From a bacterium (GTDB taxonomy: Bacteria > Hydrogenedentota > Hydrogenedentia > Hydrogenedentiales > SLHB01): a stretch of DNA of 10,376 nt. Made by a program: the position numbers and the translations under genes. Shown piece after piece: positions 579 to 10,376 of this stretch (its first letter is position 1; the number at the start of each line of letters is the position of its first letter). Location: NCBI GenBank assembly GCA_024231375.1, contig JAAEQP010001279.1, positions 1-10,376 on the forward strand. The letters run 5' to 3'. Below the pieces are notes generated by a model, which saw only the letters and a program-made list of their open reading frames with translations, searched no databases and had not been told where the DNA came from.

Positions 579-1475
579 CTAGGAGCGGCGTTTCCCAATC
601 CCTTCCGCGGCCGTCACCGTGTTGGTGAGCAGCATGGCAACGGTCATGGGACCAACGCCTCCGGGTACGGGCGTAATGGCGCGGGCTTTCTTGCTCACGC
701 CCTTGAACTCGACATCGCCGGTCAATCGGTATCCGCGCTTGCGGGTCTTGTCTTCCACTCTGTTCATGCCCACATCGATGACGACAGCGCCTTCCTTCAC
801 CATCCGGGCGGTGATGAATTCGGACACGCCGATGGCCGCGACGAGGATGTCGGCCTGTTTCGTAATGGAGGCCAGCTTTTTGGTGCGCGAGTGACATACC
901 GTCACCGTCGCGTTGGCGCCGGCGGCTTTCTGGACAAGCATGGCGGCCAACGGTTTGCCTACAATGTTCGACCGACCCACGATGACAACGTGCTTCCCGG
1001 CCGGGTCATAGCCGTAGCGCAGAAGCAGGCGTTGGCAGCCGTGCGGCGTGCAGGGAAGGAAGCCTTCTTCGCCGATGAGGAGTTTGCCTACATTGACGGG
1101 ATGGAATCCGTCGGCGTCTTTGGCGGGATCGATGGCGTTGAGAACCTTCATCTCGTCGATCTGCTTGGGAACCGGCGACTGAACCAGAATACCGTGAACT
1201 TTGGGGTCGTTGTTGAGCCGCTTCACCAGCCCCAATACACGCCGCTCGGTGGCCGTGTCGGGCAACCGATGCGCGAAGGACGCGATGCCCACTTCCGCGC
1301 AGGCGCGTTCTTTGTTCCGCACATAGATGGCGCTGGCGGGATCGTCGCCTACGAGCACGACGGCCAGTCCGGGCGCGATGCCCCGTTTCTTCAGTGCGGC
1401 AACGCGATCCGCGAGGTCGGATCGAATCTCGGCGGCCAGTTTCTTCCCATCGATTAGCTTGGCGGTCTTCGGCAT
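579..1475 (-). CDS. folD: Bifunctional methylenetetrahydrofolate dehydrogenase / methenyltetrahydrofolate cyclohydrolase FolD
   Basis: Cytosolic enzyme of one-carbon metabolism. It oxidises 5,10-methylene-THF with NAD(P)+ and hydrolyses the methenyl form to 10-formyl-THF, the donor for purine and formyl-Met synthesis. The 298-aa length is normal for the family. Visible signatures are YVRNKERAC (51-59), which contains the catalytic Lys55; [10 protein letters not shown] (94-103); [14 protein letters not shown] (119-132) with the substrate-binding Asp122; PCTPHG (141-146); the Rossmann loop GRSNIVGKP (167-175); and [15 protein letters not shown] (from about 268). All expected catalytic positions are intact. 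The usual hydrophobic residue after VQ is Ser here, a mild variation. The ATG is supported by GGAGAG (1483-1488) with 7 nt spacing. It lies 57 nt after the TPR-like gene and 40 nt before the membrane-protein gene, so it probably shares their transcript; neither neighbour is an obvious folate gene. Confidence 0.97.
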
Positions 1476-1532
1476 GCTGGTGCTCTCCCGTAGCGATCGG
1501 CTTCAGGTCAACGTCATCGGTTCGCCGCTAGG

Positions 1533-2657
1533 TCACGCGAAGCGGCTTCTCATGAAGAATACCCCAACGAACACGGCCACGCAAAGTGCCACCAGAATCA
1601 CGACCGCCAGGACCGGTGTCGAAGGAGCCCCGGACTCATTCTCCGATGCGGCCGGAGGCGGACTTTCGCCGGGAGCCTCAACGTTGGCGGTCCCGTTCCC
1701 CCGCCGCTCGTCGAACACGCGCCCTCCCCGTTCGCGGATGGGGCGTGCGGCGCTTGTCTGGTCAGAGCCCCCTGGCACGGATGACTCGACCTCCCCAGCA
1801 GAGACATTCAGGCCGGACTTGGCGCCGTCAGGAAGCTGGCTTTCGATGGCCGTGCGGAACCGCTCTAGAATCTCGGGGTAGCGGTCGGCGATGACGGGAA
1901 GCCGCTTGAGCAGCGCCTCAATCGCCGCAAGCCGCGCCTGGGGCGAGGTTCTGCCTTCAATAGCGGTGGTGAGGAGTCCTGTAACGGCGTTCTGCTGGTG
2001 CGCGGTCGCGGCCGCGTACTGCGGGCCGTCGCCAACCAACGGTTCCGCATCGTATTCCAGCATCTGAAGGTAATGGCGCTCCGCCGACGCGCGATCGCCC
2101 CGGCTGCCCGCTACTTGCCCCAAACCGTACAGGCTCTCCAGTTGCAGGGCCGGGTTGTCGGGATAGTCGTCGACCAAGCCCGAGTACAGACGCTCCGCGG
2201 TATCGGGTTCCACCGTCTGGGCGCGTTTGGCCGCCATCCGTTTCACCGCGACCATGTAGGGATGGTCCGGGTCAAAGGTCTCGACCACGTTAAGGTATGC
2301 GTCCAACGCGCCCTTGGGGTCGGCTGGTTGTCCGTAGTCGCTGAGATCCCATTCCAGAATCTGGCCCATCGTGGCTGCCAGTTCGATGTTCTTACTGAAA
2401 CCGGGGTAGCCGTCGATGATGGCTTGATACTGCTTGATCAGGGCTTCCTTGCCCTGCTCGCGGGCGATGGTTGAGGCCGACCGGCCCAGTTCCTGGATGG
2501 CGGCGAGGTACTCGGGGTACCGGGGCGATTCCTGAGCTGCAAAGGCGCTGCCCGCCACGAAGGTCACGGTCATCACAAGTGTCAGCACAAGACCCAACAA
2601 CGTGCGGAGTCGTTTGCCTTCATCCCACCGAATGCTATGCCTGAGCGTCCGTTTCAT
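1533..2657 (-). CDS. Secreted TPR-like protein with C-terminal membrane anchor
   Basis: Function not recognised. The 374-aa protein starts at the ATG at 2657. The frame opens further upstream (to 2786), but GAGGTG lies 4 nt before 2657, and the signal peptide fits this start. Residues 1-18 are basic, 19-39 are hydrophobic, and a probable signal peptidase I site follows Ala-Phe-Ala at 38-40. Residues 45-270 are helical and TPR-like. They include paired helices around 70-84 (EALIKQYQAIIDGYP), 116-143, 152-166 (TAERLYSGLVDDYPDNP) and 176-203 (GDRASAERHYLQMLEYD). A Pro/Ser/Gly/Glu-rich linker (about 280-346) leads to one transmembrane helix (347-369) with a short basic tail. The predicted layout is therefore an extracytoplasmic TPR-type domain held by a C-terminal anchor. 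Such proteins often scaffold envelope complexes, but nothing here names a partner. It is the first gene of the folD operon. Confidence 0.85.
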   Translation of the reverse strand: MKRTLRHSIRWDEGKRLRTLLGLVLTLVMTVTFVAGSAFAAQESPRYPEYLAAIQELGRSASTIAREQGKEALIKQYQAIIDGYPGFSKNIELAATMGQILEWDLSDYGQPADPKGALDAYLNVVETFDPDHPYMVAVKRMAAKRAQTVEPDTAERLYSGLVDDYPDNPALQLESLYGLGQVAGSRGDRASAERHYLQMLEYDAEPLVGDGPQYAAATAHQQNAVTGLLTTAIEGRTSPQARLAAIEALLKRLPVIADRYPEILERFRTAIESQLPDGAKSGLNVSAGEVESSVPGGSDQTSAARPIRERGGRVFDERRGNGTANVEAPGESPPPAASENESGAPSTPVLAVVILVALCVAVFVGVFFMRSRFA

Positions 2658-3083: not shown

Positions 3084-3107
3084 GGGATGCAACGCATGAT
3101 CCGGGTC

Positions 3108-3269
3108 TAGAGCGCTTCAAGTAATTGTGTGGTCGCAGCTGCGCCAGTTGGGACGAGGCTGGCAAGGAACGAAGATGCAGGCGTGGCAGAGCCACGGCGA
3201 GGCTTCGTGACGCGGTCAGCCGACGCCGCAACCAGCAGATGCGGCTACAGAATTGGTTGAGGTGCTCTA
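3108..3269 (+). repeat. 162-nt imperfect palindrome, giant hairpin in the leader of the ceramidase-like gene
   Basis: Positions 3108-3142 pair with 3235-3269. Of 35 opposed positions 27 are Watson-Crick, 5 are G.U on the plus strand (3114/3263, 3116/3261, 3122/3255, 3131/3246, 3133/3244) and only 3 are true mismatches (3121/3256, 3127/3250, 3138/3239). Pairing continues inside around the same centre (about 3189). GTTG 3147-3150 pairs with 3229-3232, GGCTGGC 3157-3163 with 3215-3221 (one G.U), ACGAAG 3169-3174 with 3203-3208, and CGTGGC 3182-3187 with 3191-3196 around an AGA loop. The ends read TAGAGC...GCTCTA. It finishes 17 nt before the Shine-Dalgarno run of the next gene. It may be a structured leader RNA, a small RNA, or a miniature inverted-repeat (MITE-like) element with TA ends. 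Confidence 0.8.
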
Positions 3270-3285
3270 AACGCAACCCGCACAC

Positions 3286-3298: not shown

Positions 3299-4588
3299 AT
3301 GGCGTTCGCGGCAGCATTCGCGGAGAAGGAAATAGCACCGCCTCTCGGCGTCAGCAAGATCGGTTGGATCAAGGACATTCGTTCCGACACGCTGCTCGAC
3401 CCGCTCTACGTACGAGTGGCGTTGCTTGAATCGGGGACCGGTAGGCTGGCGTTCGTGCAGTTGGACACGCTACGCATCGATTGGGCGGATGTGTGTACCC
3501 TGCGCCAACGCATCGCCGAAACGTATGACTTTCCCGGGGATTGCATCATGGTGTCCGCGACCCACAACCACGCCGGACCCGCTATCGCCAGCGCAGGCGC
3601 CGTGAAACGCGATGATGCCTACGCGGAAGCCACCATGAACACCATGGTCGAGGTCTTTGGGGAGGCCTTGGCGCGGATGCAAGACGCCGAGATCGGGTGT
3701 GGCAGTTGCTTCGAGTTCAACGTGGCCCACAACCGCCGCATCATGATGCGCGACGGGACTGTCCGCACCCACGGCACATTCAAGGACCCCGAAGCATTGT
3801 GTTTTGAGGGACCCATCGACCCGGAGGTGGCTGTGATGGCCGTCCGTGCGAAGGATGGAGGCTGGCTTGGCGCTCTGGTGAATTTCGCCTGCCACCCCAC
3901 GCATCACGCCGGAACCACGGAGCTATCTGGAGGCTATCCCGCCGCGTTGGCGGTTGCCATGAAACAACGCGGCTGCCCGGTCACTCTGTTCCTAAACGGG
4001 GCCTGCGGCAACCTGCATCACGCCAACCCGATGACGAACACCGACACGCCGAAGGAGGACATCGCCCGCATCCTCGCCGAGGACGCGTCACGCCTCATGG
4101 AATCGGTCGAGTTGACCGACGATGTCGCACTAGCCTCGGCGTCGCGGATGCTGGCGCTGCCCTACCGTGACCCGTCCAGCGACGAACAGGCCGGCAAGAT
4201 TCGCGGCGCACAGCGGTTCGTCGATCCGGGTCTCTACGACATGCTCATCCCGGACCTCCTCGAGCGTATCCGGCGCGACAAGATTCTGGAAGTGGAACTC
4301 CAGGCCCACGCCATCGGAAACCACGTCCTGGTGGCTGTGCCCGCCGAGCTGTTCGTTCAGCTGGGATTGCGCATCAAGACCGGCGCCCACCCCTGGCACG
4401 CGTTGGTGGTGGGCTATGCCAACGGAAGCGTCGGGTATGTGCCGCACCGCGAAGCCTTCGCGCGTGGGGGGTATGAGACGACGTTCGGCCCGTCGAGCCA
4501 ACTCGCGCCGGAGGCCGGAGACCTCATCGTCCAAGGTACGCTGGGGCTGATCGGCGAAATCCCGGCCACAGTCAGGGCGGAGGGATAG
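3299..4588 (+). CDS. Neutral/alkaline non-lysosomal ceramidase-like hydrolase
   Basis: A 429-aa protein of the neutral ceramidase N-terminal domain family, whose characterised members are zinc amidases that split ceramide into sphingosine and fatty acid. Motifs in family order are IMVSATHNHAGP (83-94) with probable zinc ligands His89/His91; VNFACHPTHH (194-203) with His199; FLNGACGNLHHANP (231-244); VAVPAELFVQLG (345-356) with Glu350; and GYANGSVGYVPHREAF (372-387), GGYETTFG (390-397), which place Tyr380 and Tyr392 near the expected tyrosine ligand. The C-terminal immunoglobulin-like domain of true ceramidases is absent. No signal peptide is seen (the N-terminus reads MAFAAAFAEKE), so it appears cytoplasmic unless the start is wrong. 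The many bacterial single-domain homologues are mostly uncharacterised, so the substrate may not be ceramide. It is the first gene of an operon with the sialidase-like gene, 3 nt away. Confidence 0.85.
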   Translation: MAFAAAFAEKEIAPPLGVSKIGWIKDIRSDTLLDPLYVRVALLESGTGRLAFVQLDTLRIDWADVCTLRQRIAETYDFPGDCIMVSATHNHAGPAIASAGAVKRDDAYAEATMNTMVEVFGEALARMQDAEIGCGSCFEFNVAHNRRIMMRDGTVRTHGTFKDPEALCFEGPIDPEVAVMAVRAKDGGWLGALVNFACHPTHHAGTTELSGGYPAALAVAMKQRGCPVTLFLNGACGNLHHANPMTNTDTPKEDIARILAEDASRLMESVELTDDVALASASRMLALPYRDPSSDEQAGKIRGAQRFVDPGLYDMLIPDLLERIRRDKILEVELQAHAIGNHVLVAVPAELFVQLGLRIKTGAHPWHALVVGYANGSVGYVPHREAFARGGYETTFGPSSQLAPEAGDLIVQGTLGLIGEIPATVRAEG

Positions 4589-7176: not shown

Positions 7177-10100
7177 GTGCTCTTCCGTATCACGTTCGCA
7201 GCAATCCTTGCCGTCACGTGTGCCCAGACCGCCATCTCAGCCGAAAAGACTGTCGCCGAATCCGCCCGCGACATCCCCGTGGCCTACGATGTGGACGTGG
7301 TGGTGGTTGGTGGATCCTCGGGTGCGGTCGCTGCCGCGGCCGAGGCCGCGAATCAAGGCGCAGACGTGTTTCTCGCCGCACCGCGCACCTATCTTGGCGA
7401 GGACCTGTGCGGCACGTACCGGCTCTGGCTCAACCCCGGCGAAGAACCCGCCAGTGAACTCGAGGAAGCCCTCTTCGAAGAACCGCCCGCGCCCATGTGG
7501 TTGGGCGAAGGGCTGCCCTTCACCTACGAGGCCGACCTTCTCTCAGCGGGCAAGCATCAGGACACGAATCCACCGTCCATGCTCTGCGATGGCAAGTGGC
7601 AGAGCGCCTACAACCAGAGCGTGGAGTATCCCGGCGACGTCAATGTCGTCCTGGATCTTGGCGAACCTCAGGCCCTCGGCGAGATCCACATCCTGGCGTT
7701 TCAGCGGAACCGCGACATCGAAGTGAAATCGCTCGACATCGCACTGAGCACGGACAAACAGACCTGGACCCCCGCCGGGACTATCCAGAACGAAATGCTG
7801 GGCCAGGGCGAGTACATCGACGAGCCCCTCTACCTCGCTACCCCGCTTGAAGGCACGGCCCGGTACGTGCGCGTGATCGCGCACAAATCCGAACGGGTGA
7901 AACGGCTTCTGCTCGCCGAAATCGTGGTGGAGGCTACTGGTGATACCACGACCAGCAAATACAAGACCGACGCCCGAGTCCCTCCGAAGCCCATGCAGGT
8001 CAAGCGCACGCTGGATCAGACCCTTCTCGACGCGGGCGTCACATTCCTCTTCGGCTGCTACCCGACGGACGTACTCCGAGATGCCGACGGCGCGCTCGCG
8101 GGCATCGTCATGGCCAACCGTGCCGGCCGCCAAGCCGTTCGCGCCAAGGTCATCATCGACGCGACGCCACGCGCCGCCGTTGCCCGTATGGCCGGCACCA
8201 GGTTCGCGCGCTATCCAGGCGGCGAGCAGACCTTCACGCGCATCGTCGTGGGCGGAGACGCGCCCGAGGCCGAAGGCGTCGGTGTCCGCACCATGCCAAG
8301 CCCCGTGCAGGTCGCCCGTACCGGCAAACGCGGCACCGGATTCCATTTGGCTTACGAGTGTACGTTGACGTTTCCCATGGGAAATGCCTCATACGCGTCC
8401 TTCGCGCAGGCCGAACTGAAGGCGCGCGACCTGACCTGGACCTCCGGGCAGGTAGGTAGTTCCGAATTCCTGTTCCAGGTGCCGCCCGACGCCATGCGTG
8501 GCGCACAGCGGCTGAAGGGAACCTGGCCCGGTGCGGAGGCCGCCGACCTAGCGGCGTTTCGTCCCGCGAAGACATCTGGACTCTACGTGTTGGGCGGGTG
8601 CGCTGACGTATCGCGCGATGCGGCCGCCGCGCTGTTGCGTCCGCTGCAGTTCCTGCGGTTGGGCACGCGCGTTGGCAGAGCCGCGGCAGAGGATGCCGAA
8701 GTGCATCTCAAGCCTCGCGTGGTGTGTTTCGGCGACAGCATCACGGCTGCGGCGTACCCCACCAAGTTGGCGGGGATGCTGAAAGGGTACCGCGTCATCA
8801 ACGCCGGTATCGGCGGCAACACGTCGGCACAGGGACTAGCGCGCCTCGATGCGGACGTGCTGGAACACAATCCCCAAGCCGTCGTTGTGCTCTTCGGCAC
8901 CAATGACAGCGTGCTCAACGGTCCCGGCAAGTACCGCGTCCCCGTCGGCGAGTACGAGAAGAACCTGCGCGCCATCGCCACCAAGTGCCAGGCCAATGGT
9001 GCCCGCGTGATCTTCATGACGCCGCCCCCCATCATGGACGCGCCCTATTACACGCGCCATCCCAAGGAGTACTACGAGCTCGATGGCGGGTTGCAGATGA
9101 TTCTTACCCGGTATCGCGAGGCTGTGAAGCGGGTCGCCGCCGAGGTGAAGGCCCCCGTCATTGAACTGGAGAAGAGCTTGGCTGCGAACCGGTCCGTGCT
9201 TGCAGAATGCGGTGTCCATCCGAACGCGCAGGGCGAGCGAATCATGGCGGAGTGCGCCGCACGAGCCCTGGATCCTCTCCTTCCCGCCAAAGACAGTCTC
9301 GCGCCTCAGGGCGTTCACGTGGCCTGCGAAACCGGGAAGGCTTCGGTCAAGGGTGACACCCGAGAGATGCTCGTCGGCCTTCGTTCGTTCCAACGCGGAC
9401 TCGCCACCATTCCTGCCGAGGCGTGCACCACACCCGTCATTGCCGAATATGATGTGGTGGTCGTGGGCGGCGGCACGGGCGGCGCGCCCGCGGGCATTGG
9501 CGCGGCACGCGCCGGGGCCAAGACCCTCGTTATCGAGTACCAGTACGGACTCGGCGGCGTCGGCACGCTGGGGCTCATCGGCAAGTACTACTACGGCTAC
9601 CGCGCCGGGTTCACCGGCGAGATCGACATGGGCGTCGCCAACATGGGCGAGATGAAGACTGACGAGCCCGCGCACGGCTGGAACGTGGAATGGAAGATGG
9701 AGTGGCTGCGCCAAGCACTATGTACGGGGGGCGCCGACATCTGGTTCGGAACCCTCGGGTGCGGCGCGGTGATTGACGGCGACAAGGTCGCCGGCGTGGT
9801 CGTTGCAACGCCACATGGCCGCGGTATCGTCCTCGCCAAGACCGTCATCGACTCCACCGGCAACTCCGACATCGCGGCCGCGGCCGGCGCGACCTGCATC
9901 TACACCGACGCGTCGCACGTAGCCGTGCAGGGCACGGGGCTCCCGCCGCGTCAGCCAGGGGCCGGGTATACCAACACCGACTACACGTTGACAGATGACG
10001 GGGACGTGGTCGATGTATGGCGGTCGTTTGTGGCTGCCCGCGTGAAGTACCGCAAGGCCTTTGATCTTGGCCAAGTCATCGACACCCGCGAACGCCGTCG

Positions 10101-10376
10101 GATCGTGGGCGATTTCGTCATCTCGCCGTTGGATATCTTCAACGGCCGCACCTATCCGGACAGCGTCGGCAAATCCCACAGCAACTTCGACACCCATGGG
10201 TTCACCATCCATCCGCTATTCTCTCTCAACGCCCCGGACAAGATCGGGATCGATGCGTTCACGCCATACCGTGCGCTGTTGCCTAAGGGACTGGACGACA
10301 TTCTCGTGACCGGTCTCGGTATCAGCGCCCACCGCGACTCCATGCCCATCTTGCGCATGCAGCCGGATATCCAGAA
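7177..10376 (+). CDS. Secreted multidomain protein: FAD-oxidoreductase-like, discoidin-like, SGNH hydrolase, FAD-oxidoreductase; 3' end outside window
   Basis: The frame is open for 1066 codons from GTG 7177 to the window edge. Residues 1-22 are a signal peptide (probable cleavage after Ile-Ser-Ala). Residues 38-128 begin an FAD-oxidoreductase-like module (DVVVVGGSSGAVAA, 40-53), interrupted at about 129-255 by a discoidin/F5-8 type C-like beta domain (DTNPPSMLCDGKW; RYVRVIAH at 229-236). The module resumes at about 270-505 and ends with GLYVLGGCADVSRDAAAALL (468-487). Residues 512-705 are an SGNH hydrolase with GDSI (519-522, nucleophile Ser521), NAGIGGN (542-548), GTND (574-577) and GVHPNAQG (679-686, His681). 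From 758 a second FAD module has a full GxGxxG (764-769) and ribose-binding Glu787. The first module has GGSSGA and no acidic residue at the end of its second strand. A redox plus ester-hydrolysing role on extracellular glycans is inference. The promoter and hairpin just upstream suggest separate transcription. Confidence 0.9.
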   Translation, partial: MLFRITFAAILAVTCAQTAISAEKTVAESARDIPVAYDVDVVVVGGSSGAVAAAAEAANQGADVFLAAPRTYLGEDLCGTYRLWLNPGEEPASELEEALFEEPPAPMWLGEGLPFTYEADLLSAGKHQDTNPPSMLCDGKWQSAYNQSVEYPGDVNVVLDLGEPQALGEIHILAFQRNRDIEVKSLDIALSTDKQTWTPAGTIQNEMLGQGEYIDEPLYLATPLEGTARYVRVIAHKSERVKRLLLAEIVVEATGDTTTSKYKTDARVPPKPMQVKRTLDQTLLDAGVTFLFGCYPTDVLRDADGALAGIVMANRAGRQAVRAKVIIDATPRAAVARMAGTRFARYPGGEQTFTRIVVGGDAPEAEGVGVRTMPSPVQVARTGKRGTGFHLAYECTLTFPMGNASYASFAQAELKARDLTWTSGQVGSSEFLFQVPPDAMRGAQRLKGTWPGAEAADLAAFRPAKTSGLYVLGGCADVSRDAAAALLRPLQFLRLGTRVGRAAAEDAEVHLKPRVVCFGDSITAAAYPTKLAGMLKGYRVINAGIGGNTSAQGLARLDADVLEHNPQAVVVLFGTNDSVLNGPGKYRVPVGEYEKNLRAIATKCQANGARVIFMTPPPIMDAPYYTRHPKEYYELDGGLQMILTRYREAVKRVAAEVKAPVIELEKSLAANRSVLAECGVHPNAQGERIMAECAARALDPLLPAKDSLAPQGVHVACETGKASVKGDTREMLVGLRSFQRGLATIPAEACTTPVIAEYDVVVVGGGTGGAPAGIGAARAGAKTLVIEYQYGLGGVGTLGLIGKYYYGYRAGFTGEIDMGVANMGEMKTDEPAHGWNVEWKMEWLRQALCTGGADIWFGTLGCGAVIDGDKVAGVVVATPHGRGIVLAKTVIDSTGNSDIAAAAGATCIYTDASHVAVQGTGLPPRQPGAGYTNTDYTLTDDGDVVDVWRSFVAARVKYRKAFDLGQVIDTRERRRIVGDFVISPLDIFNGRTYPDSVGKSHSNFDTHGFTIHPLFSLNAPDKIGIDAFTPYRALLPKGLDDILVTGLGISAHRDSMPILRMQPDIQ

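Follow-up and report, generated by a model that had tools for sequence, protein, structure and literature searches.

A dispersed palindromic element of Hydrogenedentota with changing terminal arms and a structured core common to several phyla

Bacterial MITEs are usually taken to derive by deletion from a single insertion sequence and to have interiors that are dispensable. Several described repeats resemble the hairpin studied here. ERIC/IRU, Correia/NEMIS and RUP share with it a length of 100-200 bp, a terminal TA, target duplication and predicted long stem-loop transcripts, and RUP was proposed to be an IS630/Tc1-mariner MITE (PMC2229807); all of these have been described from one genus or a few related ones. 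REPINs, which are REP doublets that form hairpins, share dispersed palindromic structure, non-autonomous character and compensatory changes (PMC3116915). The MITE of the Thiomargarita dsrA intron forms large hairpins with TATA-type ends and has many intergenic copies (PMC4853749).

The element described here is set apart from ERIC, NEMIS and RUP, by these descriptions and by Rfam scans, in that its arms change wholly while its core is found across phyla. It is unlike REPINs in its apparent TA target duplication, in a conserved part that is central and not terminal, and in that no RAYT was found in two of seven carrier genomes. The preliminary description knew of no named RNA family with this form, which is true for Rfam 15, where the element has no match above gathering threshold; the scans, run with gathering as well as E-value cut-offs, found no family on the window hairpin or on the other copies tested. 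A match to BTH_s1 (E 0.00086, 30.5 bits against a gathering score of 74) was discarded, as it overlaps only the edge of the element at locus L371, on the opposite strand. No publication on the element was found in the open-licence literature searched.

The window hairpin and its relatives

The window is the whole stretch of DNA that was analysed, 10,376 nucleotides from a Hydrogenedentota genome. Two covariance models are referred to in the following list: R1, built from 20 Hydrogenedentota copies, and R2, built on the cross-phylum core alignment and covering the core only.

579-1475, minus strand: FolD homologue
3107-3110, plus strand: left edge CTAG, consisting of target C, terminal TA and first element base G
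3108-3269, plus strand: whole element with both terminal TAs (presumed TA target duplication), from the R1 match and the terminal TA
3108-3142, plus strand: 5' arm of the long outer helix, partner of 3235-3269, from fold, pairing and covariation
3154-3224, plus strand: apical core common to several phyla, from covariation and an R2 score of 82.1 bits, which arises by construction, the window being among the 30 sequences that built R2
3163-3167, plus strand: conserved internal-loop strand CAAGG (alignment A6, columns 10-14, mean top-base frequency 0.94)
3175-3180, plus strand: second loop, 5' strand ATGCAG, consensus nCGCAG (A6 columns 23-28, mean 0.75)
3198-3201, plus strand: second loop, 3' strand CGAG (A6 columns 49-52, mean 0.89)
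3210-3215, plus strand: strand ACGCGG facing CAAGG, consensus ACGCnG (A6 columns 63-68, mean 0.86)
3235-3269, plus strand: 3' arm of the long outer helix, from fold, pairing and covariation
3267-3270, plus strand: right edge CTAA, consisting of last element base C, terminal TA and target A

The FolD homologue is most similar to proteins of Candidatus Hydrogenedentota MAGs, with 74% identity at locus L001. The other genes of the window encode a TPR-like protein without Pfam match, a ceramidase-like protein (PF04734), a BNR/sialidase-like protein (PF13088), an M50 peptidase and an FAD-oxidoreductase/GDSL protein. The last is a long ORF (7177-10376) that unites FAD-oxidoreductase, F5/8-type C and GDSL-lipase domains and runs past the window end. 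A cluster of short palindromes with common CATC..GATG cores (2804-2941; 29-nt inverted arms, 93% complementary) adjoins the element and is separate from it.

The pairing reported in the preliminary description was reproduced: without gaps, the outer arms form 27 Watson-Crick and 5 G.U pairs with 3 other mismatches, which are G.G, G.G and G.A, and no A.C. Scored over the 56 pairs of the family alignment, the window hairpin shows 47 Watson-Crick pairs, 7 G.U, 0 A.C and 2 other. The proposed structure is also borne out by RNA folding of 3108-3269, which gave -94.3 kcal/mol (z -8.87) for the plus strand and -62.7 kcal/mol (z -3.66) for the minus strand, with 0 of 200 shuffles as good in either case. 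R1 matches 3106-3271 on the plus strand with 162.8 bits, against 40.3 on the minus strand. The bases flanking the hairpin, C at 3107 and A at 3270, place it in a YTAR context.

When the window hairpin was used as BLAST query against five genomes, two full-length homologues were obtained, both from one genome (G001) and both 73% identical; read by eye, their flanks carry unrelated genes. Searching with one of these G001 copies gave matches in 8 of 68 Hydrogenedentota genomes; those in G010 and G060 were short, had no R1 support and were set aside. The covariance-model search of relatives that the preliminary description had proposed was productive: R1 found copies in at least 7 of the 68 Hydrogenedentota genomes (42 candidates scored per genome) and in at least 23 of 392 Planctomycetota genomes (E<=0.001; 7 candidates scored per genome). 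One carrier, G034, holds many near-identical copies, and another, G046, holds several subfamilies. Some copies lack one end, have internal deletions or stop at contig ends. Among 20 mixed genomes R1 gave a single weak match (G076, E 0.054), which R2 did not repeat and which was rejected.

R2 matched 10 of 50 mixed genomes (E<=0.01), with 25 matches in Thalassospira mesophila. Since R2 covers only the core, pairing of the sequence outside it is an independent check. The 40-nt flanks were found to pair in 10 of 12 tested hits (<=3 of 300 shuffles as good; the failing hits were L408 and L401) and in nine of the ten matched genomes, and random placements gave 0 of 47 at z<-3. The nine include Thalassospira mesophila, Marinicella gelatinilytica, a betaproteobacterial genome and an alphaproteobacterial MAG; the rest are four deltaproteobacterial MAGs and one Clostridiales MAG. 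For all the MAGs among them, contamination is possible.

Plasmid-borne cores with flank pairing were seen in Caballeronia and Thalassospira marina, the queries L378 and L416 matching one Caballeronia and one Thalassospira plasmid, respectively. The phage and plasmid collections gave no match with the window query or with L369 and L397. In viral contigs, one search pattern matched seven contigs, where R1 found nothing at E<=0.01 and the best R2 match had an E of 0.16; a second pattern matched none. With no match to the window query and one plasmid each for L378 and L416, a reading of the element as phage or plasmid cargo was rejected.

The element is about 160 bp long (about 165-170 nt in Planctomycetota, with the same core), and a two-core form measures 231-267 bp. 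Most of the Thalassospira copies measure 267 bp and have one pair of outer arms enclosing two hairpins with one core on each strand. In a two-core copy, L416, the cores score 44.7 bits on the plus and 38.7 bits on the minus strand; L426 (148 bp) has a single core.

Some further arrangements were observed. A longer TAGAGC-ended family of about 190-240 nt (L251-L254, genome G028) has a partly similar right side and an inserted GGGTGCCACCGCCAAG-type hairpin. The apical core stem of L403 (match 1501-1600, minus strand) carries an extra C/G-rich hairpin of about 35 nt. In L224 the 5' arm gives way to the reverse-complemented 3' side, as though by strand switching. A second short intergenic repeat, of GGGCGCGCCACAATACG type, recurs near G046 copies, in the flanks of L208, L214, L266 and L271.

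A structured core under changing arms

A structured core is kept across phyla while the arms are replaced, and this is well supported. In alignment A2, 28 of 56 pairs have changed on both sides (21 of 33 in the outer helix), and the covarying-pair test proposed earlier came out in favour of the structure, with 94.7% of cells paired compared to 83.8% in shuffled and 29-39% in slid controls. Between subfamilies the terminal arms are wholly different and yet their complementarity is kept. Within the single genome G046 the arms run from TAGAGCAGTTTAAG to TAGAGCGTTTCACG to TAGTGTCGCGTCATG, and the core persists; arm types in Planctomycetota include CTAGAGC, CTAGTGTC, CTAGCAG and TTAGGTTC.

For comparison across phyla, 30 core sequences were aligned, 12 from Hydrogenedentota, including the window, and 18 of 20 Planctomycetota loci. 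L385 was omitted from alignment A5 and L377 additionally from A6, and the pairing structure of the core was written by hand from an earlier consensus. In this core of 71 nt, compensatory change on both sides was found in 19 of 20 pairs, and 87.3% of cells are paired compared to 62.4% when shuffled and 25-40% when slid. By eye, one loop pair appears to be repeated three or four times at a spacing of about 11-12 nt. A conserved peptide encoded in the core was considered and rejected by eye, as lengths vary.

It was suggested in the preliminary description that the mismatches favour pairing of the plus strand as RNA. This holds between subfamilies, where G.U outnumbers A.C in 67 against 23 cells and in 41 against 17 distinct events (p 0.002, uncorrected for ancestry). 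It is unclear for changes private to single copies (33 G.U, 23 A.C and 23 other), and not significant in the cross-phylum core (26 G.U against 16 A.C, p 0.16). The private changes suggest that resident copies decay under little constraint. On the plus strand of the cross-phylum core, purine-purine mismatches number 57 and pyrimidine-pyrimidine mismatches 3. Of 31 diverse elements, 29 fold more stably as plus-strand RNA, the mean difference being 12.3 kcal/mol; the exceptions are L153 and L368. We read these sequence patterns as probable selection, in the propagating lineage, on the plus strand in its folded state, whether RNA or single-stranded DNA. The two-core Thalassospira copies hold one core on each strand, so that a role as DNA would fit as well as one as RNA.

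A passive MITE could acquire part of this appearance if template-switch correction or gene conversion held its arms complementary, and if its core only seemed conserved through recent spread. Such an element would account for the weak pairing constraint in the private changes and for the many truncated and internally deleted copies. However, conservation falls on the internal loops, which are not complementary, with mean top-base frequencies of 0.75-0.94 compared to 0.62 in helix columns, the helices differ between phyla by compensatory changes, and the mismatches have the purine bias given above. None of the three is expected from the perfecting of a palindrome, and we consider a passive element unlikely.

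Insertion sites

Among 47 full-length copies, 43 have TA at both ends in the expected place; the other four were left out of the counts of neighbouring bases. The base before the TA (-1) is C or T in 39 of the 43, and the base after it (+1) is A or G in all 43. These edge bases differ among near-identical copies and therefore belong to the target and not to the element.

Empty sites were sought with the joined flanks of 8 of 21 Thalassospira copies in 29 genomes of the genus, and 11 relative loci could be aligned. Five of these comparisons run through the junction with the element absent (L475, L476, L477, L478 and L483). A single TA is found at the empty site in L478 (GGGGATAGG), L475 and L476; the relatives of L477 and L483 have TC at the site and align without gaps if one TA is assigned to the target. 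The remaining six are one-sided or gapped: L479 passes through the junction with indels, the alignments of L482 and L485 are weak and have gaps, and in L480, L481 and L484 only one flank is aligned. Empty sites with a single TA imply that insertion duplicates the TA, and the Thalassospira alignments thus support a TA duplication.

The target TA often lies in a stop codon. For this comparison the element was removed in silico and ORFs of at least 100 codons were called mechanically; 35 of 50 copies were kept, those with flanks below 600 nt or unclear ends being dropped. The TA is part of a TAA or TAG stop in 12 of 35 Hydrogenedentota copies, the window copy included, and in 9 of 21 Thalassospira copies. 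At other YTAR sites of the same loci the overlap is 21 of 333 (p 7e-6) and 19 of 287 (p 2e-5), and at YTAR sites outside ORFs it is 20 of 97 (p 0.012) and 17 of 97 (p 0.003). In four of the 35 Hydrogenedentota copies one TA ends two convergent ORFs. Sites within a called ORF are 9 of 35 in Hydrogenedentota and 4 of 21 in Thalassospira. An element inserted in a TAA or TAG stop codon restores the stop, and this accounts for the many copies that adjoin gene ends.

Mobilisation, alternatives and significance

The family is short, multi-copy and dispersed, with terminal inverted repeats and, from the empty sites of the Thalassospira copies, TA duplication. Many sites, YTAR targets and TA duplication together point to the behaviour of a non-autonomous transposable element, or MITE. 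One of the readings in the preliminary description was that of a MITE-like element bearing TA at each edge, and the dispersed copies, YTAR sites and empty sites bear this out; the mobile-element reading of the palindrome is well supported. Its dispersal, YTAR targeting, TA duplication and retention of the core while arms change are directly observed or have strong support. With mobilisation in trans included, we regard it as highly probable that the window hairpin is one copy of such an element. Retroposition by target-primed copying was considered, but one-ended copies keep either end and there is hence no case for it.

A host transposase would mobilise the element in trans through its terminal arms. 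For copies with CTAGCAG arms, the mobiliser is probably a transposase of IS5 type. The arm CTAGCAGCCCGTTGAAGAAGT of the Planctomycetota copy L382 resembles ends in 37 plasmid records (best E 0.7, weak alone). Four plasmid loci were inspected, and three (L486, L488 and L491) have a second inverted end at 1.3-1.6 kb. The ORF between the ends of L486 (363 aa) scores 78 bits with DUF772 and 209 bits with the NCBIfam IS5 model (cut-off 140). The three are IS5-type insertion sequences with CTAGCAG ends on rhizobial plasmids, of which L491 seems degraded. In an IS5-type (DUF772) insertion sequence of Sinorhizobium meliloti pSmeSM11c the ends start CTAGCAGgCCGTTGAAGAAGT and match the first 21 bases of L382 at 95%, a likeness that BLAST alone does not find significant (E ~3). 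The insertion sequence differs from the hairpin in that it encodes a transposase and R2 finds no core in it. These similarities suggest an IS5-type partner for the CTAGCAG arm type only. For TAGAGC arms no end pair of insertion-sequence size was apparent in the end-pattern listings of the carriers, which are mostly draft MAGs; several single ends were seen.

Other transposases have to be weighed. TA duplication with a YTAR or CTAG preference is typical of IS630, and the present element would in that case be an IS630/Tc1-mariner MITE, as was proposed for RUP. The target sites fit, but DDE_3 (PF13358) was found in one of seven carrier genomes, with two weak, partial matches, and we think such an origin improbable. 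We are slightly more doubtful of a REPIN-like element that a Y1 (RAYT/IS200-type) transposase would mobilise through its hairpins in single-stranded DNA. Y1_Tnp is common in the phylum (54 of 68 Hydrogenedentota genomes, 5 of 7 carriers), and the strand asymmetry would suit a single-stranded DNA substrate. On the other hand, Y1_Tnp was not found in the carriers G001 and G034, drafts that may be incomplete, although G034 has many near-identical copies; moreover, TA duplication is not expected from IS200/IS605 chemistry.

A leader RNA regulating the ceramidase-sialidase genes in cis, the other reading of the preliminary description together with a small RNA, is very unlikely: the window copy does point in the sense direction, with the ATG at 3299 about 30 nt downstream, but the same core occurs in distant phyla and homologues adjoin unrelated genes in all four orientations (of 39 copies, 12 are convergent, 10 divergent, and 9 and 8 co-directional, with no bias on crude ORF calls), for which reason this reading, and with it a fixed position upstream of particular genes, was dropped. 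No other ceramidase locus carrying the hairpin was seen, in a scan that yielded no such loci for comparison. The hairpin ends about 16 nt before the G run that precedes this ATG, close to the 17 nt first given. Being in sense, very stable and with 7 G.U and 0 A.C pairs, the window copy could have been co-opted. Most simply, its place upstream of the ceramidase-like gene is an insertion, and any effect on the gene would be secondary.

Returning to the mobile element, its folded plus strand, as RNA or single-stranded DNA, may be recognised via the core loops, and such recognition may favour the spread or the toleration of the element. We hold it about as likely as not that the form in which the core is recognised is a folded single strand, and that this serves the propagation of the element itself. 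More tentatively, and with somewhat less than even confidence, we propose a family of selfish structured hairpins extending over several phyla, in which the core would replicate as a unit of its own and exchange arms so as to ride different insertion sequences. A conserved host or transposition factor would bind the folded plus strand, as RNA or single-stranded DNA, whose internal loops, CAAGG facing ACGCAG, recur about one helical turn apart.

In the present element it is the interior that appears to be preserved from phylum to phylum, in the form of a folded single strand, and the ends that vary. Should this be confirmed, it would provide a tractable case, as Thalassospira is cultured, for studying why a small element without genes keeps a structured core. 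It would also offer a way to ask what binds the core and how the element exchanges its mobilising partner, and would explain many unannotated hairpins near gene ends.
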